A stretch of 64,000 nt of DNA from Porphyromonadaceae bacterium COT-184 OH4590 (GTDB taxonomy: Bacteria; Bacteroidota; Bacteroidia; Bacteroidales; Paludibacteraceae), in assembly GCA_000768855.1 (NCBI GenBank), contig JRAN01000032.1:1-64000 (forward strand), in the 5' to 3' direction. Made by a program: the position numbers and the translations under genes. Below are positions 3,133-50,677 of this stretch, in pieces. Under the pieces are notes generated by a model, which had not been told where the DNA came from, ran no database searches, and saw only the letters and a list, made by a program, of their open reading frames with translations. Each line of letters opens with the position of its first letter. The first letter of the stretch is position 1.

Positions 3133-3208
3133 AAATATTTTAAAATAAATTAATTAAAAAAAATTGATTAACATCTCTATGATATTAGAGATGTTAATCA
3201 AAAATTCA

Positions 3209-3525: not shown

Positions 3526-3534
3526 CCTGTGTAG
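3526..3534 (-). promoter_or_regulatory. 5'-UTR motif shared by both RiPP precursor genes
   Basis: Read on the minus strand, this is CTACACAGG, 23 nt before the precursor ATG and preceded by TTTAAC plus a T/A-rich segment. The same nine bases lie 20 nt before the ATG of the orphan precursor at 47747, with a similar TTTAAC upstream. The match is seen directly. A regulatory role is inferred. Confidence 0.5.
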
Positions 3535-3566: not shown

Positions 3567-3574
3567 CAAAGGTA
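3567..3574 (-). promoter_or_regulatory. -7 box TACCTTTG of the RiPP operon
   Basis: This matches the Bacteroidota -7 consensus TAnnTTTG on the minus strand, about 65 nt before the precursor start. No well-spaced TTG partner is visible. The region 3503-3924 otherwise holds only this promoter, the shared UTR motif and the tcdA promoter. Confidence 0.5.
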
Positions 3575-16951: not shown

Positions 16952-18454
16952 ATGCTTATTTCCAAAGTATTAGCAAATATTGCAACTATTAAGAGTTACT
17001 CCAACGATGTGGAGATAAATAACATAACCGACGATTCGCGTAAGGTTGTCAAGGGCGACCTTTTTGTAGCCGTTTGCGGCGTAACATCCGACGGACACAA
17101 CTTTATAGAGCGTGCCGTCAAAAATGGAGCTGTTGCCGTTGTGGTAAACCGCTCGCATCACGTACCGTGCTTAGCCGACTATAGCCACGTACAGGTAATA
17201 GAGGTGGACGACTCCGCCAAGGCATTGGGCGAGATAGCCTCCAACTTCTACGACCACCCTTCACAAAAACTTTATCTTGTGGGCGTTACAGGCACAAATG
17301 GCAAAACTACCACTGCTACATTGCTCTACAACCTGTTTCTATTGTTGGGTTTTAAGACAGGGTTGCTGTCAACTATCCGAAACTATATCTGTCAAACACC
17401 GATAGAGACTATCAACACCACACCCAATGTATTAGAAACAAACAGATTGCTCGCCGAAATGGTAACCTGCGGTTGCAGTTACTGCTTTATGGAGGTCTCA
17501 TCGCATGCCACTATACAGCAGCGCATTGCAGGTTTGCACTTCGCCGGGGCTATCTTTACCAATCTAACGCAAGACCATCTCGACTATCACGAGACAATGG
17601 ATAACTACCGCTATGCCAAAAAACTATTTTTCGACCACCTGCCACCGACCGCCTTTGCTATTACCAATCTCGACGACCGCAATGGTATGTTTATGTTACA
17701 AAACACAAAAGCAACCAAGATAACCTACTCTACACGCTCATTAGCCGACTTTAAGACAAAAATCATAGAAAATACCTTCGATGGTATGACCCTCACAATG
17801 GAGGTGCGTACTGATGGCTTTAGGAGTGGTGTTTATGAGATGGTTACGCCTTTTGCAGGCAGTTTCAACGCCCAAAACCTTACAGCAGTATTTGGGGCAG
17901 CAGCACTTTTGTGCAAAGGATTAAACATTGATAATCAAACTATTCTAACAGCTCTAAGCGGACTTCGTCCTGTATCGGGCAGGTTCGAGATGCTACATAT
18001 CGGTGGTATCGCCGCAATAGTCGATTATGCCCATACGCCCGACGCACTCAAAAATGTGCTTTCGACCATCAACGACATAAAAGGAGCAGATGCCCAAGTG
18101 ATTACAGTAGTGGGCTGCGGAGGCGACCGCGACAAAACCAAACGTCCTATAATGGCACAGATAGCCGCAAACGAATCTGATACCATTGTGCTTACATCCG
18201 ACAATCCACGCACCGAAAACCCACAGGATATACTCGACGATATGCTCGGCGGACTCAACAAGCAGCAGACCGAACGAACTATCGTTATACCCGACCGACG
18301 ACAGGCTATAAAAACCGCCTGCAAACTTGCCAAGCGAGGCGATGTGGTGCTGATAGCAGGCAAGGGGCACGAAAACTACCAAATAATAGGCAAAAACAAA
18401 CACCACTTCGACGACAAAGAGGAGGTAATCAATTATTTCGAGCAAAGCAAATAG
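16952..18454 (+). CDS. murE: UDP-MurNAc-L-Ala-D-Glu:meso-diaminopimelate ligase
   Basis: This 500-residue ATP-dependent Mur ligase adds the third stem-peptide residue. The ATP-binding GVTGTNGKTTT motif, HLDYH near the domain centre, and the C-terminal DNPRTENP segment are present. DNPR is the signature of enzymes that select meso-diaminopimelate over lysine. It is 44 nt after ftsI and ends just before a strong bidirectional terminator. mraY and murD, the usual next genes, are missing from this place. Confidence 0.96.
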   Translation: MLISKVLANIATIKSYSNDVEINNITDDSRKVVKGDLFVAVCGVTSDGHNFIERAVKNGAVAVVVNRSHHVPCLADYSHVQVIEVDDSAKALGEIASNFYDHPSQKLYLVGVTGTNGKTTTATLLYNLFLLLGFKTGLLSTIRNYICQTPIETINTTPNVLETNRLLAEMVTCGCSYCFMEVSSHATIQQRIAGLHFAGAIFTNLTQDHLDYHETMDNYRYAKKLFFDHLPPTAFAITNLDDRNGMFMLQNTKATKITYSTRSLADFKTKIIENTFDGMTLTMEVRTDGFRSGVYEMVTPFAGSFNAQNLTAVFGAAALLCKGLNIDNQTILTALSGLRPVSGRFEMLHIGGIAAIVDYAHTPDALKNVLSTINDIKGADAQVITVVGCGGDRDKTKRPIMAQIAANESDTIVLTSDNPRTENPQDILDDMLGGLNKQQTERTIVIPDRRQAIKTACKLAKRGDVVLIAGKGHENYQIIGKNKHHFDDKEEVINYFEQSK

Positions 18455-18475
18455 AGACGTAGAAGAGTAATTGCA

Positions 18476-18521
18476 GTAATACAAAAGAGAAGATAGTGTT
18501 TTATCTTCTCTTTTGTATTAC
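18476..18521. terminator. Bidirectional terminator between murE and an outer-membrane protein gene
   Basis: A 20-bp perfect stem (18476-18495 with 18502-18521) and a 6-nt loop, with A-rich and T-rich arms. It sits between two convergent genes and can serve both. Confidence 0.88.
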
Positions 18522-18536
18522 ATTTAAGCATCAAAT

Positions 18537-19121
18537 TTAAAATTTGTATATCAGCGAAATATAAAAATTGTTTGTTTTAATGCTTCCGGTTATACCGGAT
18601 GTTTGTGTTGATATACGATTTATCAAACCTAAATCATAGCCTAGTTGTAAACCATATTTTTGATAAGTAACACCTACCCCCGGTCCAACAAGCAGATTGA
18701 ATTTTTTGTTATCATTTATAGAACCGGAGCTGGCTACATCAAAAGAGAATTTGGGACCTGCATAAGCAAATATCGTAACATCATCTGTTAGAGCGTATTG
18801 ATACATAAAACGTACCGGCACATACAATGTGTGAACATTATACGTTTCTGTCAATAGTGGTACCTTACCAAAAGTCAAGGAGTAGTTTAGCCCTGCGTTT
18901 ATACCTAAATTTTCGGTAAACATTAAGTCATACCCTGCACCTACCAAAAACCCGTCTAAAGGCAAATTTACCGAAAGCTCTCCTAAAATAGATGATGTTT
19001 TGCTTATGGAATTGATATTGATATATCCAAAGTTTACCATAAGACCTTTCTGTGCCGTCATATTGACACTTACAAACACTACGGCAATAATTAATGCCAC
19101 TTTTTTAATTGATTTGTACAT
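18537..19121 (-). CDS. Outer-membrane beta-barrel protein
   Basis: This 194-residue protein has a signal peptide (KKVALIIAVVFVSVNMTAQ region), then alternating short amphipathic strands with Gly and aromatic residues, and a terminal Phe (ISLIYKF) as expected for BAM-dependent barrels. Size and pattern suggest an eight-strand porin-like or OmpW/OmpX-like barrel. I cannot assign a substrate. It is monocistronic: a terminator lies downstream and a small ORF lies upstream. Confidence 0.75.
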   Translation of the reverse strand: MYKSIKKVALIIAVVFVSVNMTAQKGLMVNFGYININSISKTSSILGELSVNLPLDGFLVGAGYDLMFTENLGINAGLNYSLTFGKVPLLTETYNVHTLYVPVRFMYQYALTDDVTIFAYAGPKFSFDVASSGSINDNKKFNLLVGPGVGVTYQKYGLQLGYDLGLINRISTQTSGITGSIKTNNFYISLIYKF

Positions 19122-19228
19122 AACTTTTTTATTTTTTATTAATATTATAAAGAAAATTGTTGTTAAATACGATTTTTAGTTTTTAAGCAAAAACTCTAAA
19201 AAAAGCCCTTACTCTTAATTTACCTGTT

Positions 19229-19381
19229 TCATATACAAAACTTATTTTTTTGGTTAGGATTCAGTTGTTTTCCTCTATTGCCTTGTGCTTTGTCATAGGC
19301 TTTATTGGTGCCCGAAGTACCTTTGTTTGAATTTTGTTGATTTGCACTGTTGTCTTTAAGTGATACTTTTTTCATTGTCAT
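19229..19381 (-). CDS. Small hydrophilic protein, 50 residues
   Basis: The ATG at 19379-19381 (or a second ATG two codons later) opens a 50-residue frame rich in Asn, Gln, Lys and Gly (MTMKKVSLKDNSANQQ..., with NPNQ near the end). It has no signal peptide, Cys pair or membrane segment; the last residues are FCI. Codon use is ordinary for the region, and the frame fills an otherwise empty gap between two minus-strand envelope genes. Function unknown. A chance ORF is possible. Confidence 0.4.
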   Translation of the reverse strand: MTMKKVSLKDNSANQQNSNKGTSGTNKAYDKAQGNRGKQLNPNQKNKFCI

Positions 19382-19540
19382 AAGATTGTTATTTGTTTAT
19401 TATTAAAAATATATTTGTGTGGCAAAGTTGTTATTTTGTGCTTTGTATTCATTAGTTCCCTTATATCATTTGTATTGTATCTTAGTTTTACTGTTGTTTT
19501 GAATTCCTTTTTTATTTTTATTTAATTTAATGCAAAGATA

Positions 19541-20368
19541 CTAAAATATTCTTAACCCCAAACCTGCAAAAAATTCAGATTTAACAAATATACCTGTGCC
19601 TGCCAAACTGTAGCCTAACAGAAAACACCAACTATGACCGAGATTTAATCGGGCTTGTGCATTTATTGCATAAGAAAATTTGACTCCTGTATTCAAATAA
19701 TCTTTTATTGCATTAAGTTGTGTAGTAGAAGATGATTTTTCCCGTTCTACAAATTTGATGTTGCCAAAGCCAATCATTGTTTTGCTTTCTACTCGTATTG
19801 CGGGAATAATCTCAAATGAAATCATAGGTCCGGCAACATAAGAACTGATAGAATACGGCTCTTGTTGGGTAGATGACAGAAGTAAACTTGCACCTATATT
19901 CTGTCTTACTAAATAGCTGAAGTCAAGACCTATCATACCAAAAATTTTTTTAATAGGCGCTAAAGATGAACCGCCACCCCCAACAATAGCCAGATAACCT
20001 TTATGTTCAGGTCTAATTTTTTTGCGTACGTACAAAGTATCTATATGTACTCGTCTCTCAACAATAACATTATTGTTGTTGTTGTTATTATTTATAATAT
20101 TGTTGTTGATTATTACAGGATTGTTACTATCTTTTGTATTATCTTCTTTATCTCTAACAGATTCTATATCTTCATTTTTATAAAACTTAGTTTCTCCTGT
20201 CGGTAATAAAATCCAATAACCTTTATCGGGTTTATGTTCTACAATTTCTCCGATAATCAAAGTTCCGTCTTTCAGACGTATTTCATCTGGCCACTTTTTG
20301 ACTTGTCCATACATCCCAATTACAATAATAAACAATAAAGATAATGCTAAAAGTAAACGTCTTGTCAT
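19541..20368 (-). CDS. Secreted outer-membrane beta-barrel protein with Asn-repeat linker
   Basis: This 275-residue protein has a signal peptide (residues 1-21), then a small beta domain around EIRLKDGTLIIGEIVE. A poly-Asn linker follows (about residues 87-100), then a likely outer-membrane barrel of about 150 residues ending in Phe (GLGLRIF). The K-DG-x-I-x-G pattern of the small domain occurs in other Bacteroidota envelope proteins. No specific function can be given. It is divergent from the XRE regulator gene. Confidence 0.65.
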   Translation of the reverse strand: MTRRLLLALSLLFIIVIGMYGQVKKWPDEIRLKDGTLIIGEIVEHKPDKGYWILLPTGETKFYKNEDIESVRDKEDNTKDSNNPVIINNNIINNNNNNNNVIVERRVHIDTLYVRKKIRPEHKGYLAIVGGGGSSLAPIKKIFGMIGLDFSYLVRQNIGASLLLSSTQQEPYSISSYVAGPMISFEIIPAIRVESKTMIGFGNIKFVEREKSSSTTQLNAIKDYLNTGVKFSYAINAQARLNLGHSWCFLLGYSLAGTGIFVKSEFFAGLGLRIF

Positions 20369-20564
20369 TTTCTGATAAATATAAAGTTTAGAATTTTACC
20401 TCCACTTTTTTGGCTATCGGCTACTCCATTTATGTGTTAAAAAAACTTTGCAAAAATAATAAAAACCTAATATCGTTTAGGTTTGTGCAGTAACTTTGTG
20501 CATTAATAGCAATATTATCGCATAAATAGCTATGAATACTAAATTATAGCAGGTTTATTTTTTT

Positions 20565-20572
20565 TAACTTTG
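20565..20572 (+). promoter_or_regulatory. -7 box TAACTTTG directly before an XRE gene
   Basis: The box ends five bases before the ATG of the regulator, so transcription should begin at or next to the start codon (a leaderless mRNA). A second TAACTTTG at 20491-20498 could give a longer transcript. Confidence 0.45.
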
Positions 20573-20577
20573 TTAAT

Positions 20578-20907
20578 ATGAAAACAGAAAAAGATATTAT
20601 TACCAATATTTTGCAAATACGTATTAAAAAGCGGTTAACTCAAAAAGACCTTAGTCTCTCGTTAGGTGTTTCTGAGGCGACATACAACCGTATAGAGAGC
20701 GGGAAAATCACTCTCTCTTATAGCCATATTGCAAAAATTGCAAGAGCTTTTTCGATGTCTGTAATAGACCTTATTACCTACCCCGAAGTATATCAGCCGG
20801 CTAAATCGTCTTACTCCACAAAAGTTCTTGTAGAGCTTGATATAAACAACGATGAATTTGTAAAAATGGGACTTAAAGATAAAGTCCTCCAAACACTTAG
20901 TAAGTAG
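20578..20907 (+). CDS. XRE-family helix-turn-helix regulator
   Basis: This 109-residue protein is a small cytoplasmic DNA-binding regulator. Residues 12-65 form a Cro/CI-type helix-turn-helix (RIKKRLTQKDLSLSLGVSEATYNRIESGK is the recognisable core). The remaining 40 residues are a short tail without a known ligand domain. It is divergent from the Asn-repeat envelope protein and convergent with nadB. Targets are unknown. It could regulate itself or the divergent gene. Confidence 0.8.
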   Translation: MKTEKDIITNILQIRIKKRLTQKDLSLSLGVSEATYNRIESGKITLSYSHIAKIARAFSMSVIDLITYPEVYQPAKSSYSTKVLVELDINNDEFVKMGLKDKVLQTLSK

Positions 20908-20933
20908 TTAATACCGTATGCCCCTAATCGGAA

Positions 20934-22505
20934 TTATTGTATCTTGTTCGGATAGTCTATAGTATAGTGCAACCCTCTGCTTTCGTGGCGAGCCATAGCC
21001 TGCTTTATGATTAGATATGCCACGCTTATAGAGTTACGAAGTTCGCATATATGAGGCGATACAACAGAGCGTTTAAATAAGTTTTCGGTCTCTTCATACA
21101 ATATTTCGAGCCTTACCAAAGCACGCTGCAGGCGAAGATTAGAACGAACTATACCCACATAAGAACTCATTATCTGCTGCACCTCTTTGAGCGATTGTGT
21201 TATAAGCACCATCTCTTCGGTTAGTTTAGTCCCTTCTGCACTCCAATTCGGAATATCTTCTTGCCATGTAAGATGGTCTATTTTTGTCAAAGCATCTGTT
21301 GCCGCAGCATTGGCATATACAATTGCCTCTATCAAAGAATTGGAAGCCAAACGATTGGCGCCGTGCAGTCCGGTACAGGAACATTCGCCACTGGCGTACA
21401 GACGCTTTATTGATGTTTGGGCGTTAAGATCGACCTCAATGCCACCACACAAATAGTGTGCCGCAGGAGCGACAGGTATAGGTTGCTTGGTACAATCGAT
21501 ACCGTACAACAGCAATTTTTCATATATGGTCGGGAAATGCTCTTTGGTAGTCTCGGGATTTTTGTCTGTAACATCGAGATAAACGTAGTCGCTACCGGCT
21601 TGCTTCATCTCGGTATCTATGGCGCGTGCCACAATATCGCGAGGAGCCAACGACAACCTGCTATCGTATTTATGCATAAACTCTTCTCCTTTTATATCCC
21701 GCAATACGGCACCATAGCCACGCATAGCCTCAGTTATCAAAAAAGAGGGGCGATTGTGAGCATTATAAAAGGCTGTAGGATGAAACTGCACAAACTCCAT
21801 ATCTTTTATCTTACCCCTTGCCCTATGTACCATAGCTATACCATCACCTGTTGCCACCAAAGGATTGGTGGTAGTTTGATATATATTACCGATACCGCCT
21901 GTGGCAAGCATAGTTACCTTACCCAAAATCGTATATATTCTGCTACTGTCAATATCCAGAGCGTAAACGCCGAAGCATTCTATATTGGGAGTATGACGTG
22001 TTACTATCTGTCCGAGGTGGTGTTGTGTCAATAATTCTATTACGAAACAATGTTCAAAAACCTCTATATTGGGATGTTGACGAACTCTTTTAATCAGAGA
22101 ATTCTGTATCTCGGCTCCGGTGGAGTCTTTGTGGTGGAGTATTCTAAATTCAGAGTGTCCGCCCTCCTTGTGTAGGTCGAACGTGCCGTCTGGAGATTTA
22201 TCGAAATCTACACCCCACTCCAAAAGCTGGTTTATCTCTTTGGGAGCGTTGGTAACAACCTTTTCTACGGCTTTTATATCGCAGATACCGTCGCCTGCAA
22301 TAAGAGTATCTTCTATATGTTTTTCGTAATTGTCGAGAATATAATTAGTTACCGAAGAGATACCGCCTTGAGCCAATGTGGTATTAGCTTCTACAAGTTC
22401 TGTCTTACACAAAAGAGCTACTTTACCTTTATGAGCAACTTTCAGAGCGAAACTCATACCTGCAATACCACTGCCCACTACCACAAAATCAAATTTTTTC
22501 TGCAT
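20934..22505 (-). CDS. nadB: L-aspartate oxidase
   Basis: This 523-residue FAD enzyme oxidises L-aspartate to iminoaspartate, the first step of de novo NAD synthesis; in anaerobes fumarate can be the acceptor. It has the N-terminal FAD-binding motif VVGSGIAGMSFAL, the succinate dehydrogenase/fumarate reductase-type region EFVQFHPTAFY, RGYGAVLRD, and the C-terminal helical domain with ESRGLHYTIDYP. Length is normal. nadA and nadC, its usual partners, are not adjacent. Confidence 0.94.
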   Translation of the reverse strand: MQKKFDFVVVGSGIAGMSFALKVAHKGKVALLCKTELVEANTTLAQGGISSVTNYILDNYEKHIEDTLIAGDGICDIKAVEKVVTNAPKEINQLLEWGVDFDKSPDGTFDLHKEGGHSEFRILHHKDSTGAEIQNSLIKRVRQHPNIEVFEHCFVIELLTQHHLGQIVTRHTPNIECFGVYALDIDSSRIYTILGKVTMLATGGIGNIYQTTTNPLVATGDGIAMVHRARGKIKDMEFVQFHPTAFYNAHNRPSFLITEAMRGYGAVLRDIKGEEFMHKYDSRLSLAPRDIVARAIDTEMKQAGSDYVYLDVTDKNPETTKEHFPTIYEKLLLYGIDCTKQPIPVAPAAHYLCGGIEVDLNAQTSIKRLYASGECSCTGLHGANRLASNSLIEAIVYANAAATDALTKIDHLTWQEDIPNWSAEGTKLTEEMVLITQSLKEVQQIMSSYVGIVRSNLRLQRALVRLEILYEETENLFKRSVVSPHICELRNSISVAYLIIKQAMARHESRGLHYTIDYPNKIQ

Positions 22506-22591
22506 AATGATAATATTTTACAAGATTTTATTTAACACCGACAAACAGCCCAAAATCAACTATTATTCTTAATCTTGATACTCATTTTAAT

Positions 22592-24439
22592 TTATAAGTT
22601 TAAAACATACTCAAGTATGGTGTCTTTGCCTTTTATGTAGTCCTCTAAGGTTTGTTTCACCTCTATATCGGGTGCCACGCCTTTGCCGTGATAGCCGTCA
22701 AAATCTTTTCCTATCGACAGCATAAAAGGGAACAGTCGTACATTTGCACGACCTACATCACCATTGGTACCTGAGGTATTTTCGCCTACAAGTGTGCCGA
22801 GACCATTTTTTTTAACTGTATTGGCTATACTTTCGGCATAGCTTGTAGAGCTGCTGCTTATCAAAAAATAGATAGGTGCCTTAATTGTCGGTTGTATCGG
22901 TAATATTGTATTCTGGTTTTCTTTCCAAATAGTTTTGTCTTGTTCGGGGAAATATCGCATAGGCAACCGATAGTCGCCCCAAACTACAGGCTTTTCGGTA
23001 ACAAACGCCAGTATATCTAAAGCATGCCAACTCGGATATTGACGATTGTCAAAGATTATCTTACTTATATTGGGTGTATTGGTAAGAAATTGTTTAAACG
23101 CTTTTGGTGTACATTTGCGAGACGAAAGCAATACATAAAATACCCCATTGCCCATATCTTGTATAAAACTTTCGTTTCGAGGTTTGGCTTCGGACGAAAA
23201 GTTCTCATAATAAGTACCGCTTGAGTCTCCGGTATAGCTTACCGTATCGCCGTTTTGTTTTCTAAAAGTGTATTTCATTACCGAGTCGGGGTCTAATGTC
23301 GGGAAACCAAAATAGAGCAACTGCTCAACCTTAGGTTTGTGCGTGGCAGCAGAAACATATTTCAACTGTTCGTCCAAAAATCTATCTGTTGGCACATCAT
23401 TGACAGAAATCAACAAATCGCCCTTGTCTATCATCCTATTATCGTGAGTTTTAATATTGCCAGACAATACAACTTCGCCATCGATATACTTCAATCCGAT
23501 AGAATTATAGTGTGTAGCCAAATAAGCACCGACAACTCCCTCTCCGCAAAAATCAGACGAAAGCACAATGTGCTGGTCTTTAAAATTCCCCATAAACTCA
23601 CGCAGAACATATAAATAATACTCTCCAATGTCGTCTGTTAGTGCTGCTTTTTGGGTGTACGACAATAGCAATTCGGTCATTTTTGCATCGTCTAATCCAT
23701 CTTCTTTTAGATATGGATAAAATAGGCGTAATACAGTCCAATGAACTATAATGTCGGCAATTTTCAAAGTTTCGTCTTTAGCTGTTATAGGCTTTATAGT
23801 TGCTGTTTTTGTGGTAATAGTCTTAATCACCGATGTGGTTGTTCTCAAATCAATCGTGTCAATTTTCTCTATTATGTTTTTAGTATTTTTTTTCAGCGAC
23901 GGATCGAATCTGCTTATTGCTATCGGGTAACGCAATGTTATTTCATCAGTTAAGCGATAGCTGTATAGAGAGTCGGCTACAGGCAGCTCGTTCGATTGTT
24001 TTTTACTAACTATTTTAGAATGGTAGGGCACCTTAATACCTAATACGCTCTTAGCCCCCACTCCGTAATGTTCCATTAAGTAAAAAGAGGCTGCCCTGCT
24101 CCTTTTAGGCTCTGCTCCAAAGGTTTTGTCAGACGTTATAATCTGCATTTCGGGCATTAATGGCGAAAAAGAGCGATATAAAAACTCTGCCAATATATCG
24201 GTGCTGTTGTCTATCTTTTTAGCCTCCCGTAACGTATGCATCAAAAACTTGTACCAATTGATTTTTTTGGCATATTTATTAGGATAATAGTATCTGGTAT
24301 AACCGTATAGATTGGCTATTGCCTCAATCTTATCGTTGCTATTATTCCATTTGCTATCATCTACGGTCGACCGATTATTAAAACCATACATACTCCCAAT
24401 AGATAGTAATAGCAAGATTACAATTATTGATTTTTTCAT
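22592..24439 (-). CDS. S41-family C-terminal processing peptidase-like protein
   Basis: This 615-residue exported protein has a signal peptide (residues 1-19). An N-terminal helical region of about 250 residues is followed by a PDZ-like segment (DKGDLLISVNDVPTDRFL) and the S41 serine-protease domain. The candidate nucleophile is the Ser in STSYAES near residue 540, followed by GTLVGENTSGTNGDV. The end HGKGVAPDIEVKQTLEDYIKGKD is typical of S41 proteins. It probably acts in the periplasm or at the surface. The substrate is unknown. Confidence 0.82.
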   Translation of the reverse strand: MKKSIIVILLLLSIGSMYGFNNRSTVDDSKWNNSNDKIEAIANLYGYTRYYYPNKYAKKINWYKFLMHTLREAKKIDNSTDILAEFLYRSFSPLMPEMQIITSDKTFGAEPKRSRAASFYLMEHYGVGAKSVLGIKVPYHSKIVSKKQSNELPVADSLYSYRLTDEITLRYPIAISRFDPSLKKNTKNIIEKIDTIDLRTTTSVIKTITTKTATIKPITAKDETLKIADIIVHWTVLRLFYPYLKEDGLDDAKMTELLLSYTQKAALTDDIGEYYLYVLREFMGNFKDQHIVLSSDFCGEGVVGAYLATHYNSIGLKYIDGEVVLSGNIKTHDNRMIDKGDLLISVNDVPTDRFLDEQLKYVSAATHKPKVEQLLYFGFPTLDPDSVMKYTFRKQNGDTVSYTGDSSGTYYENFSSEAKPRNESFIQDMGNGVFYVLLSSRKCTPKAFKQFLTNTPNISKIIFDNRQYPSWHALDILAFVTEKPVVWGDYRLPMRYFPEQDKTIWKENQNTILPIQPTIKAPIYFLISSSSTSYAESIANTVKKNGLGTLVGENTSGTNGDVGRANVRLFPFMLSIGKDFDGYHGKGVAPDIEVKQTLEDYIKGKDTILEYVLNL

Positions 24440-24539
24440 TTTAAGAATTTGCTTTTATTGTAAAAAAAAATCGTTATTCAATCAAGCACAAATATTTGAC
24501 AAACAGGCACAACCATCTACTTATCAAGCACAATTGCAA

Positions 24540-26222
24540 TTACTTCTTCTTCCAACCGTCTTTGAGCGTTGCCGTGCGGTTGACTATTAGAGCTCCTTCT
24601 TTTGAGTCTTTATCGACACAGAAGTAACCCAAACGGATAAATTGGAACTTATCCATCGGTTTGGCGTCTCTAAGGCAAGGCTCAAGTTTGCATCCTGTCA
24701 TTACCTTTTTCGAGTCGGGATTGATAAGCGAACGGAAATCGCGCTCATCGTCAGAAGGATTTTCGACAACAAACAATCTGTCGTACAATCGCACTTCGGC
24801 ATCGATACAATTGTGAGCCGATACCCAATGCAGAGTGCCTTTCACTTTGCGGTTAGCCTGAGGCATACCGCTCTTTGTGTCGGGGTCGTAGGTGCATAGT
24901 ATTTCGACGACATTGCCGTTTTCGTCCTTTACTATATCGGTACATTTGATAATGTATGCGTTTTTGAGCCTAACCTCTTTGCCAAGCGAAAGGCGGAAGT
25001 AGTCCTTAGGCGGATTCTCCATAAAGTCGTCTCGCTCAATGTAGATATTACGCGAAAACTCTATCCGACGCATACCTGCGTTCGGGTCTTCGGGGTTGTT
25101 TTCGGCAAGCAGTGGTTCGGTAGTCCCTTCGGGGTAGTTGGTAATGGTTACCTTTATGGGATTCAATATCGCCGCAACACGTTGGGCTGTCTTGTTCAAA
25201 TCGTCTCTTACGGCAGACTCCAATAGGGAAATATCATTCAACGCCTCAAATTTTGTATAACCAATCTTATCAACAAAGTCGCGTATAGCCTTAGGAGTAT
25301 AACCTCTACGGCGAAGCCCGCAAAGCGTAGGCATACGAGGGTCGTCCCAACCGGATACCAAGCCTTCTTCAACAAGCTGTAGCAACTTACGCTTACTCAT
25401 AACGGTGTATGTGAGGTTGAGGCGGTTAAACTCCCTCTGTTTGGGGCGATAGCTACTATCGGCAAACTGGTCGATATACCAATCGTACAAGGGGCGATGT
25501 ACCTCAAACTCAAGGGTACACAACGAGTGCGTAACACCCTCAAAATAGTCGCTTTGACCGTGTGCAAAGTCGTACATCGGATATACCTTCCATTGGTAGC
25601 CTGTGCGGTGGTGTGGGTGCGAGGTGATAATGCGATACATAATAGGGTCGCGAAAGTGCATATTGGGGTGAGCCATGTCTATCTTGGCACGCAGCACCAT
25701 TTTGCCATCGGCAACCTCCCCTTTTGTCATTTTTTCAAACAAATCCAGATTCTCCTCAACCGAACGATTCCTAAAAGGACTATCGGTACCGGCGGTAGTG
25801 GGCGTACCCTTTTGCTTGGCTATCTCCTCCGAAGTCTGCTCATCGACATACGCCTTGCCATCTTTGATAAAGCGTATGGCAAGGTCGTGCAACTGCTTGA
25901 AGTAATCCGAAGCATAATATACATTTGCCCACCGAAAGCCGAGCCACTCTATATCTTCTTTGATAGAATCCACATACTCGACATCTTCTTTTACCGGATT
26001 GGTATCGTCGAAACGGAGATTGCATATACCTTTGTATTTCTGTGCAATACCAAAATCGAGGCATATTGCCTTGGCATGCCCTATATGCAGGTAGCCGTTG
26101 GGTTCCGGTGGAAATCTGGTCTGTATCCTGCCGTCGTTTAAGCCCTGTTGCAGGTCGGTCTCTACTATCTGTTCGATAAAATTCAGTGACTTTTTATCCT
26201 GTTCCGATGTTAAATTTGTCAT
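24540..26222 (-). CDS. glnS: Glutaminyl-tRNA synthetase
   Basis: This 560-residue class I synthetase charges tRNA-Gln directly. The HIGH motif is in PNGYLHIGHAKA and the KMSKS equivalent is VMSKRKL. The C-terminal half forms the anticodon-binding beta-barrels. The ATG at 26222 (MTNLTSEQ) is used instead of an in-frame upstream start at 26420, because the extra 66 residues come from the repeat-rich intergenic sequence and match no part of the family. TACTTTTG at 26251-26258 (minus strand) is a possible -7 box. Confidence 0.96.
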   Translation of the reverse strand: MTNLTSEQDKKSLNFIEQIVETDLQQGLNDGRIQTRFPPEPNGYLHIGHAKAICLDFGIAQKYKGICNLRFDDTNPVKEDVEYVDSIKEDIEWLGFRWANVYYASDYFKQLHDLAIRFIKDGKAYVDEQTSEEIAKQKGTPTTAGTDSPFRNRSVEENLDLFEKMTKGEVADGKMVLRAKIDMAHPNMHFRDPIMYRIITSHPHHRTGYQWKVYPMYDFAHGQSDYFEGVTHSLCTLEFEVHRPLYDWYIDQFADSSYRPKQREFNRLNLTYTVMSKRKLLQLVEEGLVSGWDDPRMPTLCGLRRRGYTPKAIRDFVDKIGYTKFEALNDISLLESAVRDDLNKTAQRVAAILNPIKVTITNYPEGTTEPLLAENNPEDPNAGMRRIEFSRNIYIERDDFMENPPKDYFRLSLGKEVRLKNAYIIKCTDIVKDENGNVVEILCTYDPDTKSGMPQANRKVKGTLHWVSAHNCIDAEVRLYDRLFVVENPSDDERDFRSLINPDSKKVMTGCKLEPCLRDAKPMDKFQFIRLGYFCVDKDSKEGALIVNRTATLKDGWKKK

Positions 26223-26344
26223 ATATACTATTATTAATAATTTCAGAGTACAAAAGTAATAAAAAAAAACAGTTTGGGTGTTTAGAAACATAAGGATTGT
26301 TTGTTGCTTTTGGTTTCGGGCAAAAAAAGTTAAATATAAAACTT

Positions 26345-26520
26345 CGTTAGGTATTGGGTTTAGGTTTTGGGTGTTAGGTGTTGGGTATTGGGGTTGTAGT
26401 GTCCTGTTCTGAAAAAACAACGTAGAGACGCAAAATTCATTACGTCTCTACATCAGTTATTCGGGCGAATACGTGGGTACGCCCCTACATACCTAACACC
26501 CAATACCCAATACCTAAGCC
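26345..26520. repeat. Intergenic cluster of hairpin and GGTATTGGGT-type repeats
   Basis: This gap holds G/T-rich GGTATTGGGT-like units (26351-26393), a hairpin GTAGAGACG...CGTCTCTAC (26422-26451) and a 22-nt imperfect hairpin GGGCGAATACGTGGGTACGCCC (the repeat unit is at 26463-26484). It ends with ACCTAACACCCAATACCC-type units that are inverted relative to the first block. The same unit types recur at 27549-27775, on the other side of the lipoprotein gene. No protein is encoded. Confidence 0.75.
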
Positions 26521-26525
26521 CTGAC

Positions 26526-27515
26526 CTACGGTCTTTCGGCAATGAATATGGAGCGGGCTTCGCCTTTGTCGGCAAGTGTGTAGAGCTCTTTGCCGTTTTT
26601 CCATACTTTGGCTACATTATCCGAGCCCTCCGTTTCGGACCCTGCCACATATACATCGCCGTTATATACCACTATGGAACGGGCTACGCCATTATCGGCA
26701 AGCTCGTAGAGCTCCTCGCCGTTTTTCCATACTTTGCCTGCAGTTCCTTCATCCCCTACCACATATATATCTTCTCCCGCCACATATACGGAGAAGGCTC
26801 GGGCGCTTTTAGAACCGTCGGTCTTGAATACCACCTTTTTGTTTTTCCACACTTTGGCGACCCAGTTTGGGCGGCTGGTCTCATAGCCGGCGGTATATAC
26901 ATCTTCGCCCACTACAAATACGGAGAAGGCATAGGCAGTATTATCACCGTTGGTAAGGGCATAGAGTTCGCTGCCTTTTTTCCACACCTTGGCTACATAG
27001 TTTGTACCGTTGCTCTCATGTCCGGCGGTATATACGTTGCTGCCCGCCACAAATACGGAGTAGGCGGCTGCATCGTTAGTACCTGTGGTAAGGTCGGTGG
27101 CGCTTTTGTTTTTCCAAAGTTTGGCCACTTTGCCGTCCCACCCTGCGGTATATACTTTATCCTCCGATACGAATACGGATTGGGCTCGGGCAGTATTAGA
27201 AGCGTTGGTAAGGGCATAGAGTTCGTCTTCGTTTTTCCACACCTTGGCGACGTTGCTCTCATAGCCGGCGGTATATACATCGCTGCCCGCCACAAACAGT
27301 GAGTAGGCTTCGGCATCTTTATCACCGGTGGTAAGCTGGTAAAGCTCCTTGCCGTTTTTCCATACTTTGGCTACACCATTTGCACCTGTTTTGTCAGAAC
27401 CTGCCACATAGATATCTATCTCCTTAGGCGGTTCGGGCGGGGTGGGTTTGCAGGCAGTAAAGCCTGTTGCTAACATTGCTGCTACGGCAGCTCCAACTAA
27501 AATTACTTTTTTCAT
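26526..27515 (-). CDS. Lipoprotein made of seven beta-propeller-like repeats
   Basis: This 329-residue protein starts at the ATG at 27515, giving an N-terminal MKKVILVGAAVAAML signal with a lipobox-like FTAC. Seven repeats of about 40-45 residues follow, each of the form VYTAGYE-(x)-VAKVWKNG-x-ELY-x-L...A-x-SVFVAGSD. The count of seven and the strand pattern suggest a seven-bladed propeller with a tethering Pro-rich stretch (PTPPEPPK). Repeats 1-5 are very alike, so recent duplication is likely. The ligand is unknown. It is flanked on both sides by dispersed hairpin repeats. The first in-frame start, at 27545, is less likely. Confidence 0.75.
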   Translation of the reverse strand: MKKVILVGAAVAAMLATGFTACKPTPPEPPKEIDIYVAGSDKTGANGVAKVWKNGKELYQLTTGDKDAEAYSLFVAGSDVYTAGYESNVAKVWKNEDELYALTNASNTARAQSVFVSEDKVYTAGWDGKVAKLWKNKSATDLTTGTNDAAAYSVFVAGSNVYTAGHESNGTNYVAKVWKKGSELYALTNGDNTAYAFSVFVVGEDVYTAGYETSRPNWVAKVWKNKKVVFKTDGSKSARAFSVYVAGEDIYVVGDEGTAGKVWKNGEELYELADNGVARSIVVYNGDVYVAGSETEGSDNVAKVWKNGKELYTLADKGEARSIFIAERP

Positions 27516-27548
27516 AACTTTTTTGATTTTTTTGAAATTAAACAATTA

Positions 27549-27775
27549 TTTTGGGTTTTAGGTATTGGGTTTTGGGTTGTTTTATTTTGGGCGAACACGT
27601 AAGTATGCCCCTACATACCCAATACCCAATACCTAACACCTAATATCCAATACCTTTTTATTATTCGGGCGGACACGTGGGTACGCCCCTACACATTAAT
27701 CATTAATCATTATTTCTTTATTTGGGCAACCACAAGGGATTGCCCCTACATACCTAATACCCAACACCCAATTTA
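27549..27775. repeat. Second intergenic hairpin-repeat cluster
   Basis: Three 22-nt hairpin units of GGGC...GCCC type start at 27589, 27667 and 27724. Each is followed by CCTACA and, for two of them, by ACCCAATACC-type units; an ATTAATC duplication lies near 27695. Together with 26463-26484 there are four hairpin copies within 1.3 kb. No gene is seen. Confidence 0.75.
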
Positions 27776-28153
27776 TCATTCACTCTCTACTGTTTCGTAC
27801 GATATTTTTTCCATCTGCTTTTTTAGCTCCGTGCCGGGCGTAAATACTATCTTTGGCTTTATGGAGCCGGTCTTAAACTGTTCGGGGCTTTCGGCTCCGT
27901 CGCTCGACAGAGATATCCTCATAGTGCCGAAATGCCCAAGCTGTACGCTGAATCCGTCGTTTAGGTACATCGGAAGACGGTCTATAAGGTTGCTCAGCAC
28001 ATTTTCGACATCTCCTTTTGTCAGCGACGAGCGACCCGCAATATCGTCGGCTATAGCACGAAGCTCTTTTTTACCTGCATTCACCGCATTGGCGTAATAC
28101 TTTTTCTTGTCCCTGTCGGCAGGGTTTGCTTTCTTTACTAATTTAATTTTCAT
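27776..28153 (-). CDS. HU-family DNA-binding protein (Bacteroidota HU-like)
   Basis: This 125-residue nucleoid protein belongs to the HU/IHF fold, in the Bacteroidota branch that begins with a KIKLVKKANP-type strand. Residues 25-90 contain the helical dimer part (LTKGDVENVLSNLIDRLPMYL) and the GHFGTMRISLSSDG segment. The arm and C-terminal strand (PKIVFTPGTELK) follow. It probably bends DNA. It lies downstream of a four-copy 22-bp repeat array that it or another protein might bind; this is only a positional hint. Confidence 0.85.
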   Translation of the reverse strand: MKIKLVKKANPADRDKKKYYANAVNAGKKELRAIADDIAGRSSLTKGDVENVLSNLIDRLPMYLNDGFSVQLGHFGTMRISLSSDGAESPEQFKTGSIKPKIVFTPGTELKKQMEKISYETVESE

Positions 28154-44567: not shown

Positions 44568-47513
44568 TTACATTTCGCCTCCTTTAAATATTTTTGTAAG
44601 TGGCACACGATTTACTTTACCGTATTTACGTTCGATAGCTTTGAGGTCGATATACTTAGGATTGCCGTGTATAACGATGATAACCGGAGCATTTTTGATT
44701 TTTTCGTTGTAGAATTTGGTTATATTATCGAATGTAAGTGCCTCTGCTTTGGGGTAAAGCGTTTTGGCAGGGTCTTCAGTGTATCCCATTTTTTTCAGAT
44801 TCTCAAAATACATACTCTTTGCTCTAAATGAAATATTGTCAGACTGAAGTTCAGACTTGAGTTGTGCTTTTAGCTCACCTATATATGAAGTATGCAGAGG
44901 CATATTTTTCAACAAATCCATATAAACGTCCACTACTATATTCACCTTATCATTTTGAGTGCCAGTAGAGCCCATAAACCAACTTGTGTTGTTAAGGGGA
45001 TTGCCTGATGCAAAGCCATAAGTGCTATAAGCCAAAGAGCGTTTTTCACGTATTTCCGTAAAAGTCAGGGTATTGAGACCACCAGCACCAAAATATCTGG
45101 AGAATGCGGAATAGTCCATTGCCTCAGACTTGTCGTAGTTACCTATAGGGAAGTACATAGTAACATCTGCTTGTTGTATGTCTGAGTTAGGCAAGAAGTA
45201 AATTTCCGGACTGCTGTATGCTACACGGTCGCGATAGAATGGTTTCTGAGCCTCTACCACCGTTTTCTGTGTAGGTACTGTACCTTTTAGGATACCGGCT
45301 ACTTCACCGATAGGTTTTGCACCGGCATAATGCACATCGACAGGATAAGAAGTTACTTTCTGTATAGCTGCGGTAAGGTCGGAGTTGGTAACGAGGAAGT
45401 TGTAACCCGATTGGCCCATAAATATAAGCTCTTTGGAAGGGATACGGTCGATATATGGAGATTTGTCGCCATACTGTATATATTGCATAAGGGCAGAAGA
45501 TATAATGCCCGGAATACGCTTTTCGAACATACGACCTTGTACTTCACCTGCCATAACAGCCTCTATCTGTTTATTGTCGAGCTTTGGCATCAAAAACAGA
45601 CGGAAAATAATAGGCATAATCTTGTCCAAGTCTTTTTCGTTACCTTGCACGTTGATAAAGAAAGAGTTGTCGTTGATACCAACTCCATAAGAAGCTCCAT
45701 ATCTCGACAGTTCACGTCTAAGGTCGTTATTAGACTGGCTCGGCATAGTACCCGCATAGTTCATAAGTGTAGCAGCATATCGCAGTTTAGGATCTGTATG
45801 TGTACCAACCTTATACTCAAGAGTAAGAGAGAAAATATCGTTTTTCTTATTCTCTACATAAAAAAGTTGTCCGCCATTGAAAAGATGCTCGGTTTTGATA
45901 TCCGAAAAATCTGTAAACTTAGGAGCCGGTGCTTGAATCTGATTTTTGGTAAACTCTTTGTAGTACTTAGAGTACTCCTCGGCAGGCGACTCGAGTTTGG
46001 CTATGTCAGACCTGTCGTAAAGCTGTATTTTAGGCTCTCCTTCTGAAAAAGAGATAGTAAGGTAATTACCCGAAAAATACTTGTTAGCAACAGCCTTGAT
46101 ATCGTCCAATGTTATAGCCTTTATCTGTTGCTCCATACTAAAGAAGTCTTCCATAGGTATGCCATATAGATAAGAGTCTGTAGCTACGCTAATCTTAGCT
46201 CTTTCAGACTCATCGTATAGTTTTACCATATTTAGATAAGAGTCTTTTACCGATTGGAAAAGCCAAGTTGGCACTTGTCCTCGTTTTAGTTTGTTTATTT
46301 CTGCCATTATAAGCCTTTCGGTAGCTGCGTCGGAGGCGTATGTATATTGGCTTACATCAAAGTATGGAGAGGCTTGTACCACAATCCTACCGCAATCACG
46401 GAACGATATTAGGCTTGCTCCTGCCTCCTGAACATCACCTTCCATAGATAGTTTATCCAAAAGACCTGTATTATATTGATTGTTCAAGAGCGAAAGCATA
46501 AATTCTATTTTAAACTCGTCGGGGTGTCCTTTCTTTACACCGTCAAAGCCCCATACAACCATTGGAGAGTAGCCCATTTTAACTTTAATTTTTTCATTAT
46601 TTTTAAGTGGCATAGGTACCGTAGGTGTTCGTTTGGGCAACTCTTTATATTTCATTTGACCAAAAGTCTTCTCAATCATCGGTTTTACAACGGCAGGGTC
46701 GAAGTTACCATAAAGCAAAAGCCCCATATTATTAGGCACATACCAATCGTCGAAGAACTTAATCATTGGTGAAAGACTCGGGTTCTTTAAGTGTTCGGGT
46801 GAACCTATTATATCACGAGCGTAATTTGACCCTTTAAAGAGATTTGCGAATAGAGCTTGTGTTATTTGAGCCCTCATTTGAGGCATTCTCATATTCAACT
46901 CTTCAAAAACGTTTTCCATCTCTGCTTGGAATTCGCGATAAACAGGATTGGTAAAGTGATCGACATATAGTTTCAACCATCTGCCTGTTTCATGAGCGGG
47001 AAACTCATTGTGATATACCGTTTGGTCATAAGCGGTATAAGCATTCAGACCGATACCTCCAAGGTTTTGAATAAGTGTCGAGAACTCAGAACCTTTGCTG
47101 ATTTTAGATGCGGCTACCGATAGCTCGTTGATTTTTTTTGTAAGTTCGTCTCTTTTAGCCTTATCTTTTTTGGGGTCTTTGAGTTTTGCCTTTTCGTCGT
47201 ATAGTTTGATAATTTGCTCATACATAGGCTTCTCTTTTTCCCAATCGAGAGCACCTATCTCCTGTGTACCTTTAAACAACATATGCTCCAAATAGTGAGC
47301 CAATCCTGTAAAATCTGCCGGTTCGTCGATAGATCCCGCTCTTACAGTAAGCTGACCATAAACATTAGGTTTCTCTTTGTCAACCCAAAGATAGACAGTC
47401 AAACCATTTTTGAGTTTGTACTCCTCAAAGCCTTCTCTAAGATTGGTCTGAGAGAAAACTCCTAAACTAACAGCCACAAAAGCCATTAACATCAAGAATG
47501 TCCTTTTCATCAT
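44568..47513 (-). CDS. M16-family zinc protease (insulinase-like), secreted
   Basis: This 981-residue protein has a signal peptide (FLMLMAFVAVSLGVFSQ). The first M16 domain contains the inverted zinc motif HYLEH (about residue 78) with a downstream Glu in the AEMENVFEEL segment. Two inactive M16 repeats follow, as in pitrilysin-type enzymes. It probably degrades peptides in the periplasm. Two adjacent Met codons make the exact start uncertain by one residue. It has a good promoter at 47579. Confidence 0.9.
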   Translation of the reverse strand: MMKRTFLMLMAFVAVSLGVFSQTNLREGFEEYKLKNGLTVYLWVDKEKPNVYGQLTVRAGSIDEPADFTGLAHYLEHMLFKGTQEIGALDWEKEKPMYEQIIKLYDEKAKLKDPKKDKAKRDELTKKINELSVAASKISKGSEFSTLIQNLGGIGLNAYTAYDQTVYHNEFPAHETGRWLKLYVDHFTNPVYREFQAEMENVFEELNMRMPQMRAQITQALFANLFKGSNYARDIIGSPEHLKNPSLSPMIKFFDDWYVPNNMGLLLYGNFDPAVVKPMIEKTFGQMKYKELPKRTPTVPMPLKNNEKIKVKMGYSPMVVWGFDGVKKGHPDEFKIEFMLSLLNNQYNTGLLDKLSMEGDVQEAGASLISFRDCGRIVVQASPYFDVSQYTYASDAATERLIMAEINKLKRGQVPTWLFQSVKDSYLNMVKLYDESERAKISVATDSYLYGIPMEDFFSMEQQIKAITLDDIKAVANKYFSGNYLTISFSEGEPKIQLYDRSDIAKLESPAEEYSKYYKEFTKNQIQAPAPKFTDFSDIKTEHLFNGGQLFYVENKKNDIFSLTLEYKVGTHTDPKLRYAATLMNYAGTMPSQSNNDLRRELSRYGASYGVGINDNSFFINVQGNEKDLDKIMPIIFRLFLMPKLDNKQIEAVMAGEVQGRMFEKRIPGIISSALMQYIQYGDKSPYIDRIPSKELIFMGQSGYNFLVTNSDLTAAIQKVTSYPVDVHYAGAKPIGEVAGILKGTVPTQKTVVEAQKPFYRDRVAYSSPEIYFLPNSDIQQADVTMYFPIGNYDKSEAMDYSAFSRYFGAGGLNTLTFTEIREKRSLAYSTYGFASGNPLNNTSWFMGSTGTQNDKVNIVVDVYMDLLKNMPLHTSYIGELKAQLKSELQSDNISFRAKSMYFENLKKMGYTEDPAKTLYPKAEALTFDNITKFYNEKIKNAPVIIVIHGNPKYIDLKAIERKYGKVNRVPLTKIFKGGEM

Positions 47514-47578
47514 AATTTTTAATTATTAATTTTTACATTTAAATAAGTTATTTTTTTTATTCATATATTGGCAGAATA

Positions 47579-47607
47579 CAAAGGTAATTATTTTTTTATT
47601 TTCTCAA
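47579..47607 (-). promoter_or_regulatory. Promoter of the M16 protease gene
   Basis: On the minus strand, TTG (47605-47607), 18 nt, then TACCTTTG (47579-47586), 65 nt before the ATG. Confidence 0.6.
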
Positions 47608-47643
47608 CACTTTAATTTGACTTAAATGAGAAGTGGTAGATTT

Positions 47644-47676
47644 TTTGTGAGATATAATTTTTTTTTATTATCTTTG
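47644..47676 (+). promoter_or_regulatory. Promoter of the orphan RiPP precursor
   Basis: TTTG (47644-47647), 21 nt, then TATCTTTG (47669-47676). The predicted 5'-UTR of about 65 nt contains the CTACACAGG motif. Confidence 0.6.
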
Positions 47677-47717
47677 CAATGAATTAAAATAAATTATTCT
47701 TTTAACTTTAATCCTGA

Positions 47718-47726
47718 CTACACAGG
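47718..47726 (+). promoter_or_regulatory. 5'-UTR motif shared with the RiPP operon
   Basis: CTACACAGG, 20 nt before the ATG and preceded by TTTAAC (47701-47706). It is the counterpart of 3526-3534 on the other strand. Confidence 0.5.
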
Positions 47727-47746
47727 TTGTATGTAGTAAATATTGT

Positions 47747-47938
47747 ATGAAAACTAAATTTAAAATCATTGAGGAAGGTATGATTTCTCAAGGCGAAATG
47801 AAGGTATCAAAAGGAGGAAACCCAACATTATGTGGAATAAATCAAGGAACTTTTTGGGGAACTTGTTTCCCAAATTACATGCCAATTTGTCCCTCGTTTC
47901 TCAATCCCTGCCCTAAGCATAATATAGGGTTGGGGTAA
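47747..47938 (+). CDS. Orphan RiPP precursor with GG leader
   Basis: This 63-residue peptide has a leader of 24 residues (KFKIIEEG ... KVSKGG, Gly-Gly at 23-24). The 39-residue core has four Cys and several Pro, Phe and Gly residues (CGINQGTFWGTC, CPSFLNPCPK). The leader matches that of the precursor at 3209-3502 in KF-x-[VI]-IEEG and in the GG end, and the 5'-UTRs share a nine-base motif. No maturase, protease or transporter is adjacent: its neighbours are an M16 protease (divergent) and fusA. I infer that it is a substrate of the maturase 44 kb away or of an enzyme outside the window. Confidence 0.72.
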   Translation: MKTKFKIIEEGMISQGEMKVSKGGNPTLCGINQGTFWGTCFPNYMPICPSFLNPCPKHNIGLG

Positions 47939-47966
47939 ATGATTTTGGCAACTAATTATTTCACAA

Positions 47967-48005
47967 AAACAAAAAAGGATTTTTAGATAAAATCCTTTTT
48001 TGTTT
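47967..48005 (+). terminator. Terminator of the orphan precursor
   Basis: A perfect 17-bp stem (47967-47983 with 47989-48005) and a 5-nt loop; the right arm carries the T-tract. It shows that the precursor is a one-gene unit. Confidence 0.92.
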
Positions 48006-48510
48006 ATTTACAGATATCTATATATATAATTGAGGCATAGCAGGAACTCAATATTTTATTTCCTGATAATTTAAACAAAGAATATTGAAAAACAATGATG
48101 GAGAATTAACAATAGACGGATACTTGGCAGTTATTCCCATTTTTAGATAAATCGAATAATAAAAGAATCACTGAATTTGCAATCACATAATTAGAGAAAC
48201 TGTCTGACAAGAGAATATTATAATTTTCCACAAGAAGGTGTAGCTATTGCCTCTAATAAAAGTAGAGTTCTACTATTGTTTTTGAAATACAATAATAAAT
48301 TACACAACAATATTTTAACATGATTACACAAAATAGAAGAAAAAAAGTAGTATCAGTAACATAATCTTTGTACAACAACTAAAAGATTAGATTTGGCAAA
48401 TTCATATATAGATATTTATTTGTGCAAAATACCATGTAGTATCCTAAATGTAGATCCGATAAAAGGGGGAAGAAAACATAAGATACTTATTTTTTATGCC
48501 CATAAAACAA
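48006..48510. other. Intergenic stretch without recognised gene
   Basis: About 505 A/T-rich bases between the orphan precursor and the fusA terminator. Short frames such as NNDGELTIDGYLAV near 48110 end quickly at stops. This may be decayed coding DNA, but I cannot assign it. Confidence 0.4.
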
Positions 48511-48540
48511 AAAAGCCCCACTTCGTAAAGTAGGGCTTTT
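48511..48540 (-). terminator. Terminator after fusA
   Basis: AAAAGCCCCACTT and AAGTAGGGCTTTT pair with one mismatch around a short CGTA loop. Confidence 0.85.
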
Positions 48541-48559
48541 GATATTTATTGTCAGACGA

Positions 48560-50677
48560 TTAGAGCAACTCGACACGTCCTTTGTTCTCTTCGATAACAG
48601 CTTTTGCAAGTGACGACGATACTTCGGCATAGTGCGAGAACTCCATAGAACTTGTAGCCCTACCGGAAGTAATAGTACGTAATGCTGTAACATAGCCAAA
48701 CAACTCCGCCAAAGGCACTTTTGCTCTAACAATACGAGCACCTGTACGTGAGTTGTCCATACCTTCGACGTCTCCTCGACGTTTGTTGAGGTCACCTATG
48801 ACATCACCCATACTCTCTTCGGGCGTTACCACTTCGAGTTTCATTATCGGCTCCATAAGCACGGGTTTAGCCTTAGCACAAGCATTTTTGAATGCAAGTT
48901 GAGCACATATTTCAAATGAAAGCTGATCGGAGTCAACAGCGTGGTAGCTACCATCAACAAGAGTAACTTTGAGAGTATCAACAGGGAAACCTGCCAAAAC
49001 ACCATTTTTCATTGCAGCAACAAAACCTTTCTGTACCGATGGTATATACTCTTTAGGGATGTTTCCGCCTTTTACTTCGTCAATAAACTGTAATGCACCT
49101 TCGAAATCGGGGTCAACAGGTCCTACCTTTACTATAATATCGGCAAACTTACCGCGACCACCTGTCTGTTTCTTATAAACCTCGCGAAGCTCAACCTCTT
49201 TTGTAATAGCCTCTTTGTAAGTAACTTGCGGTTTACCTTGGTTACATTCAACCTTAAACTCACGTTTTAGACGGTCAATAATGATTTCCAAGTGTAATTC
49301 ACCCATACCCGAAATGATAGTTTGACCTGTCTGTTCGTCGGTTCTAACTGTGAATGTTGGGTCTTCTTCGGCAAGTTTGCTAAGGCCAACACCGAGTTTG
49401 TCAAGGTCTGACTGTGTCTTGGGCTCTACTGCAATACCGATTACAGGATCGGGGAAATCCATACTTTCGAGTGCTATTGGATGATCTTCGCTCGACAATG
49501 TATCGCCGGTACGAATATCTTTGAAACCAACCCCTGCACCGATATCACCTGCACCGATGAAATCGACAGGGTTCTGTTTGTTTGAGTGCATCTGGAATAT
49601 TCTCGAAATTCTCTCTTTTTTGCCCGAACGCACATTATATACATACGAACCTGCTTCGAGTTTACCTGAATATACGCGGAAGAAACACAAACGACCTACA
49701 TAAGGGTCGGTAGCAATTTTAAATGCCAAAGCACACAAAGGCTCGCTGTCGTCCGGTTTGCGTTGAAGTGTTTTCTCAGGATCGTCGGGCAAGGTACCTT
49801 CGATAAACTCAGTATCAAGAGGCGAAGGAAGGTATGCACAAACAGAGTCAAGCAGTGTTTGCACACCTTTATTTTTGAATGAGCTACCACAAATAATAGG
49901 ATTTATCTGCATAGCAACAGTAGATTTGCGGATAGCTGCACGTATTTCTTCTTCAGTTATTGTATCCGGGTTGTCGAAATATTTCTCCATCAACTGATCA
50001 TCGAATGATGCCAATGTTTCGAGCATCTTATCTCTCCATTCGGCAGCTTCGTCCTGCCATTCTGCAGGTATATCTTCGATTTGGTAGTGGGCACCTATAG
50101 TCTCATCCCTCCAATAGAGAGCCTTCATAGCAACAAGATCTATAATACCCTTGAAGTTCTCTTCCGCACCTATGGGTATCTGTATCGGACAAGGGTTTGC
50201 ACCAAGTACCTCTTTGATTTGTGTTACCACCTCGAAAAAATTGGCTCCCGAACGGTCCATTTTGTTAACATAACCGATACGAGGCACACTATATTTATCT
50301 GCCTGACGCCAAACCGTCTCCGACTGTGGCTCTACACCACCAACAGCACAAAAAGTAGCTACAGCACCGTCGAGGATACGAAGTGAGCGTTCTACCTCCA
50401 CAGTAAAGTCAACGTGCCCCGGAGTGTCAATGAGGTTTATTTTATATTCTTCATTTCTGTATTTCCAACGAGTAGTGGTAGCAGCAGAAGTGATAGTGAT
50501 ACCGCGTTCCTGTTCCTGTTCCATCCAGTCCATGGTAGCAGCTCCGTCGTGAACCTCTCCTATTTTATGGGTGAGACCGGTATAGAATAGAATACGTTCC
50601 GACGTTGTGGTCTTACCAGCATCAATATGAGCCATGATACCGATATTTCTTGTAAAAGCTAAATTTTGTTTTGCCAT
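48560..50677 (-). CDS. fusA: Elongation factor G
   Basis: This 705-residue GTPase translocates tRNA and mRNA on the ribosome. G motifs: [23 protein letters not shown] and NKMDR. The five-domain length is full and the C-terminal [12 protein letters not shown] segment is canonical. In many genomes it follows rpsL-rpsG; here it stands alone with its own -7 box (TAACTTTG at 50741-50748) and terminator. Confidence 0.97.

Follow-up and report, generated by a model that had tools for sequence, protein, structure and literature searches.

Models for the GG-leader radical SAM RiPPs of Bacteroidales, TIGR04149 among them, reportedly stem from work by Haft and Basu in 2011. Peptides of this kind are common in the order (PMC10352776, PMC4573289), and a published TIGR04149-type cluster carries a pseudo-rSAM protein (TIGR04150) together with a lipoprotein (PMC4573289). 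RiPP clusters of Bacteroidales (PMC10352776), as well as LanB clusters in which DUF4932 was earlier noted as a putative metalloprotease (PMC5410138), resemble the locus described here in their GG precursors, radical SAM proteins, C39 exporters and DUF4932, whereas many of them add YcaO, LanC or LanB, none of which appears in the stretches read around the present cassette. Among ranthipeptide maturases, CteB makes thioethers (PMC10352776). Unlinked substrates are known from the prochlorosins and synechococsins, in which a LanM enzyme has 29-79 substrates and its precursors may be encoded at dispersed sites across the genome (PMC10783134).

The window, that is, the whole 64,000-nucleotide stretch of Porphyromonadaceae bacterium COT-184 OH4590 that was analysed, holds a radical SAM cassette at 296-3502 and, 44 kb away on the same 70-kb contig, a second precursor with a leader of the same kind, here called the orphan. 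The system resembles the TIGR04149 RiPPs in its GG leaders, its Bacteroidales host and its radical SAM/SPASM partner, whereas DUF4932 stands in place of the TIGR04150 protein and lipoprotein of the published cluster. Against the TIGR04149 cut-off of 25 bits, the orphan reaches 13.7, the cassette precursor gives no match and three sibling precursors fall just short (19.9, 20.1 and 24.5 bits). Because the precursors stay below this model and the maturase clears none of the named equivalog cut-offs among its 25 best models, the system forms a branch, so far uncatalogued, of the known GG-leader radical SAM RiPPs. The proposed arrangement resembles the prochlorosins in its single enzyme, in a conserved leader common to the orphan and the enzyme-linked precursor, in divergent cores and in a precursor lying away from the enzyme; it differs in that a radical SAM protein with two precursors replaces a LanM with 29-79 substrates, and the genome, with its two leaders, does not offer many substrates per enzyme.

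Two precursor genes and a maturase cassette

The features on which the comparison rests are as follows.

296-1648, minus strand: radical SAM/SPASM peptide maturase, the proposed enzyme for both precursors
1645-3132, minus strand: DUF4932 protein (PF16286) with a signal-peptide-like start
3209-3502, minus strand: cassette precursor, with its leader at 3422-3502 (27 aa, GG at the end) and its core at 3212-3421 (70 aa, eight Cys)
3526-3534, minus strand: 9-mer CTACACAGG in the 5' UTR of the cassette precursor
3567-3574, minus strand: -7 box TACCTTTG of the cassette precursor, 72 nt upstream of the start codon
47644-47676, plus strand: Bacteroidetes-type promoter of the orphan, TTTG-N21-TATCTTTG (regular-expression scan)
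47718-47726, plus strand: 9-mer CTACACAGG in the 5' UTR of the orphan, common to both precursors
47747-47938, plus strand: orphan precursor, an intact reading frame of 63 codons
47747-47818, plus strand: orphan leader MKTKFKIIEEGMISQGEMKVSKGG, 24 aa, GG at the end (leave-one-out HMM; genome profile search)
47819-47938, plus strand: orphan core NPTLCGINQGTFWGTCFPNYMPICPSFLNPCPKHNIGLG, 39 aa with four Cys, plus stop
47967-48005, plus strand: intrinsic terminator of the orphan, a perfect 17-bp stem (arms 47967-47983 and 47989-48005) with a 5-nt loop

The maturase exceeds the cut-offs of PF04055 and TIGR04085 and contains CX3CX2C, as expected of a radical SAM/SPASM protein, and C101, C105, C108 and seven later SPASM cysteines are invariant in five homologues. 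Among the 25 best NCBIfam models, it passes no named equivalog cut-off (Clo7bot 192.9 against 600, CefB 187.9 against 600, TIGR04463 177 against 525). Its closest solved relative by sequence is CteB (PDB 5WGG; E 5e-8 with a single sequence, 3e-19 with a profile), a distant relation, and the likeness to ranthipeptide and sactipeptide systems consists of cysteine-containing substrates and this distant homology alone. A structure model built from a two-sequence alignment was too poor (mean pLDDT 51.6) to reveal a recognition domain; the strand-strand-strand-helix order of its residues 7-39 hints at one and was kept out of the evidence.

The DUF4932 protein retains HExxH and a distal Glu (H245, E246, H249, E292) unchanged in seven aligned homologues and is likely a secreted zinc peptidase; it is a constant member of the radical SAM cassette, with processing protease or immunity as candidate roles. 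In the window, the cassette runs in the order precursor, DUF4932, maturase, and the contig ends 295 bases past the maturase, with no exporter start in these bases. At 1-76 on the minus strand, a consensus promoter TTTG-N19-TACCTTTG points off the left end of the contig, and a gene just outside the window, next to the maturase, may start from it.

The orphan, with cysteines at positions 29, 40, 48 and 55, lies between two minus-strand genes at 44568-47513 and 48560-50677, which we take to encode an M16-type peptidase and EF-G, respectively. As the sequence-only reading had proposed, it has a promoter and a terminator of its own, and it therefore looks like a separate transcription unit: the -7 box lies 78 nt upstream of the start codon, the promoter pattern occurs 7 times when both strands of the window are counted, and the terminator hairpin (-17.9 kcal/mol, z -6.8) has a T-rich 3' arm. 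An Rfam search returned no known RNA element above cut-off. The four congeners have no orthologue of the orphan. The M16 gene is present in all four in the synteny comparison, and EF-G is absent from the stretches beside it, two of these loci ending within about 300 bases; the insertion of the orphan thus carries no date.

Upstream of the two genes, CTACACAGG sits 20 and 23 nt ahead of the start codons. This 9-mer occurs 16 times in the genome, with a precursor following only two of the copies, and is therefore weak evidence by itself; since it is also missing before the precursors of other species, it was rejected as a family tag. The promoter-UTR regions of both precursors are alike at a level reached by 1 of 2000 shuffles, and the best match to the cassette precursor's UTR among about 26,000 windows of the genome is the region upstream of the orphan. 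The match is not reciprocal, the orphan's UTR having two better AT-rich matches elsewhere, and the promoter-UTR likeness is only suggestive of duplication of a 5' module with replacement of the core.

Leader likeness and its co-occurrence with the maturase

The likeness of the two leaders is beyond chance. A degenerate DNA pattern for KF[KR][VI]IEEG has exactly two zero-mismatch matches in the 2.39-Mb genome, the orphan and the cassette precursor; across 300 genomes of the family, the other zero-mismatch matches occur only in one congener (G049), as three short Cys-rich GG peptides, and matches with one mismatch belong to proteins of other kinds or to frames that are open by chance. In the present genome, one such match, on contig C67, was considered as a third leader and discarded, as it lies inside a 131-residue protein resembling an HU/IHF-type DNA-binding protein. 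A profile of seven leaders, in which GG is invariant, was applied to five genomes of the genus and yields two leaders here, three in G049 and a single one in G086, with two further matches at E above 0.2. Since E-values of this profile are inflated for the leaders used to build it, the search that matters is a leave-out HMM made from five leaders of other species and neither leader of the window, which scores the latter at 3.9e-6 and 5.7e-6, the next best of 3566 frames reaching 1.5. In pairwise comparison, the orphan leader exceeds all 1000 shuffles against each of five close cassette leaders and does not exceed shuffles against leaders taken from the remaining GG systems compared, including the peptides of contig C43.

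The sequence-only reading had held that the orphan and the precursor at 3209-3502 share the leader pattern KF-x-[VI]-IEEG ... GG and carry different cores (39 aa with four Cys against 70 aa with eight), and both statements hold. Homology of the two cores was rejected, since shuffled sequences align just as well (731 of 1000). The scan of the genome for the same leader and UTR motif that it had suggested, carried out by pattern and profile searches for small reading frames, yielded the two leaders and no third, and the 9-mer as already described. A lack of leader conservation in relatives had been named as a refutation; instead, the leader recurs in the cassettes of G049, G086, L035 and G510.

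These cassettes share much of their organisation. In G086 (contig C226), precursor, DUF4932, maturase (63-64% identical) and C39 ABC exporter follow one another in this order, which is also that of G510, while in L035 ('Bacteroidia bacterium PG1894_169') precursor, DUF4932 and maturase are followed further on by a C39 exporter. One locus of G049 (C169) contains a C39 exporter, two tandem precursors, a DUF4932-like fragment and a maturase, and another (C186) a precursor, DUF4932 and a truncated maturase. In G576, the system is decaying, as judged from its reading frames: in this decayed version (L093 and L094, on contigs C4 and C76), the leader has a stop codon and lies beside an intact DUF4932, and the maturase, on the other contig, has two stops and adjoins a second intact DUF4932 and a C39 exporter.

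The leader profile matches just three of 393 genomes in the order, namely this genome (G000), G510 and G576, and a maturase of at least 41% identity occurs in four, these three and G418, where the copy is partial. When G000, which contributed to the profile, is left out, both leader-positive genomes fall within the three maturase-positive ones of 392, an outcome with a chance probability of about 4e-5. Within this genome there are six SPASM proteins, including the maturase. The other five comprise two of TIGR04133 (one seen with a lipoprotein partner), two of the grasp-with-spasm type (TIGR04193) and one on contig C70, and an orphan-type leader lies near none of them. The expectation that the orphan has no dedicated maturase is thereby supported as regards SPASM proteins, among which none was found for it and the other five belong to other systems.

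Proposed modification in trans and its alternatives

Because the leader occurs, among the 393 genomes, only where a close maturase homologue occurs, and the other five SPASM proteins belong elsewhere, the orphan is probably, though with appreciable reserve, a second, unlinked precursor of the system at 296-3502 that is modified in trans by its maturase; action of the enzyme on the orphan is what we infer from the leader. The N-terminal recognition domain of the maturase would bind the KFx[VI]IEEG stretch, and the enzyme would then modify the Cys-rich core, most likely by thioether cross-links from cysteine. A C39-type exporter would cleave the leader after GG and export the product, with the transporter of contig C43 acting in trans; both elements of double-glycine export are present, a GG site in the leader and, elsewhere in the genome, a C39 transporter, which lies outside the cassette as far as the contig extends. 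One point against this reading is that position -4 of C39 leaders is usually hydrophobic, whereas in the orphan leader it is Ser. The orphan itself may have arisen by duplication of the promoter-UTR-leader module followed by divergence of the core.

A broader formulation, which we advance tentatively and rate somewhat below an even chance, is that the radical SAM maturase belongs to an unnamed Bacteroidales family whose cassette includes a DUF4932 zinc peptidase, and that it is guided by the leader and tolerant of the core. It would turn the products of two unlinked genes into Cys-linked peptides with different rings, and new cores would arise when the promoter-UTR-leader module is copied away from the cassette. 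The earlier idea of one maturase acting on several dispersed substrates remains plausible as regards a single enzyme for both precursors and is not borne out as regards several dispersed substrates, with only two leaders found in the genome and both on one contig. The combinatorial RiPP family it had envisaged finds no support, as the extra copies of congeners lie inside cassettes and are not scattered (G049 has two tandem precursors and one in another cassette, G086 has one).

Alternatively, the orphan could be an unmodified GG-leader peptide resembling class II microcins, its four cysteines joined in two disulfides and its leader kept for C39 cleavage and export only. No modifying enzyme adjoins it, and the C39 exporter of the genome, with membrane-fusion and outer-membrane partners, adjoins GG peptides that look unmodified. 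However, the conserved KFx[VI]IEEG is N-terminal, outside the usual C39 recognition stretch near GG, the leader of the C43 peptides shows no likeness to that of the orphan above shuffles, and the leader tracks the maturase across genomes, which together make this explanation unlikely.

A slim chance is left for the orphan being a relic, or a precursor duplicate that survives fortuitously and is perhaps transcribed, yet yields no functional product. In keeping with this, its core is about half as long as the cores of all relatives, it is not kept in congeners, and decay is known in the system from the stop codons of G576. Against it, the gene keeps its frame open and its leader intact, along with a promoter that fits the consensus and a terminator without mismatch, and remains of DUF4932 and the maturase are absent nearby; the related notion of a remnant of a former cassette was discarded, since 47514-48559 shows no vestige of DUF4932, maturase or C39. 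Finally, action of another modifying enzyme on the orphan (the C70 radical SAM/SPASM protein, the grasp-with-spasm pair, or another type such as YcaO, LanB or LanM) is highly improbable; the genome was searched for SPASM proteins, and the C70 and grasp-with-spasm enzymes do exist in it, but the systems on C70 and on contig C39 have their own nearby GG peptides with different leaders, and the orphan leader matches the cassette family.

If modification of the orphan by the cassette maturase is correct, the arrangement of one enzyme with an unlinked substrate, known in lanthipeptides, would extend to a radical SAM system of Bacteroidales, and a substrate of this sort would escape mining that works from clusters, since just one model touches the orphan and scores it below cut-off. 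With the two precursors one could also test cleanly to what extent a radical SAM maturase is governed by the leader irrespective of the core, and the comparison points to an uncatalogued cassette of precursor, DUF4932, radical SAM/SPASM protein and C39 exporter.

Additional peptide systems and minor observations

At L086 and L089, more distant maturase relatives (28-29% identity) lie with three or four GG precursors in tandem whose leaders closely resemble one another. In the present genome, the radical SAM/SPASM protein on C70 (94564-96284) has upstream a small GG peptide, MCNKKLKKDAEELLSNELLELKGGKEGVSSLDSGCFFGCESGCKQSCKEVIHLV, with a different leader; neither enzyme nor peptide exceeds the cut-off of a specific NCBIfam peptide system. 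The two grasp-with-spasm systems, with TIGR04193 over cut-off, lie on contigs C46 and C39; the latter is adjoined by a candidate precursor beginning MELDGLMKINNEGMKVVKGGYTLHTVTV, and no precursor was recognised alongside the former.

The sole C39 ABC transporter found in the genome lies on contig C43 (about 17327-27946) among unrelated GG peptides: the exporter, with HlyD- and TolC-like partners, is followed by three near-alike GG peptides, one of which scores as a TIGR03949 class IIb bacteriocin. These peptides are interleaved with six paralogous membrane-anchored proteins, most of which have a retropepsin-like WDTG motif; the one checked had no Pfam match. In the window, a putative lipoprotein at 26526-27545 on the minus strand, also without a Pfam match, contains repeats around VAKVWKNGKELYxL. 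Downstream of the orphan, an AT-rich, ORF-poor gap at 48006-48500 contains a 19-nt imperfect inverted repeat (48014-48032 and 48397-48415) and is possibly the remnant of a small mobile element.
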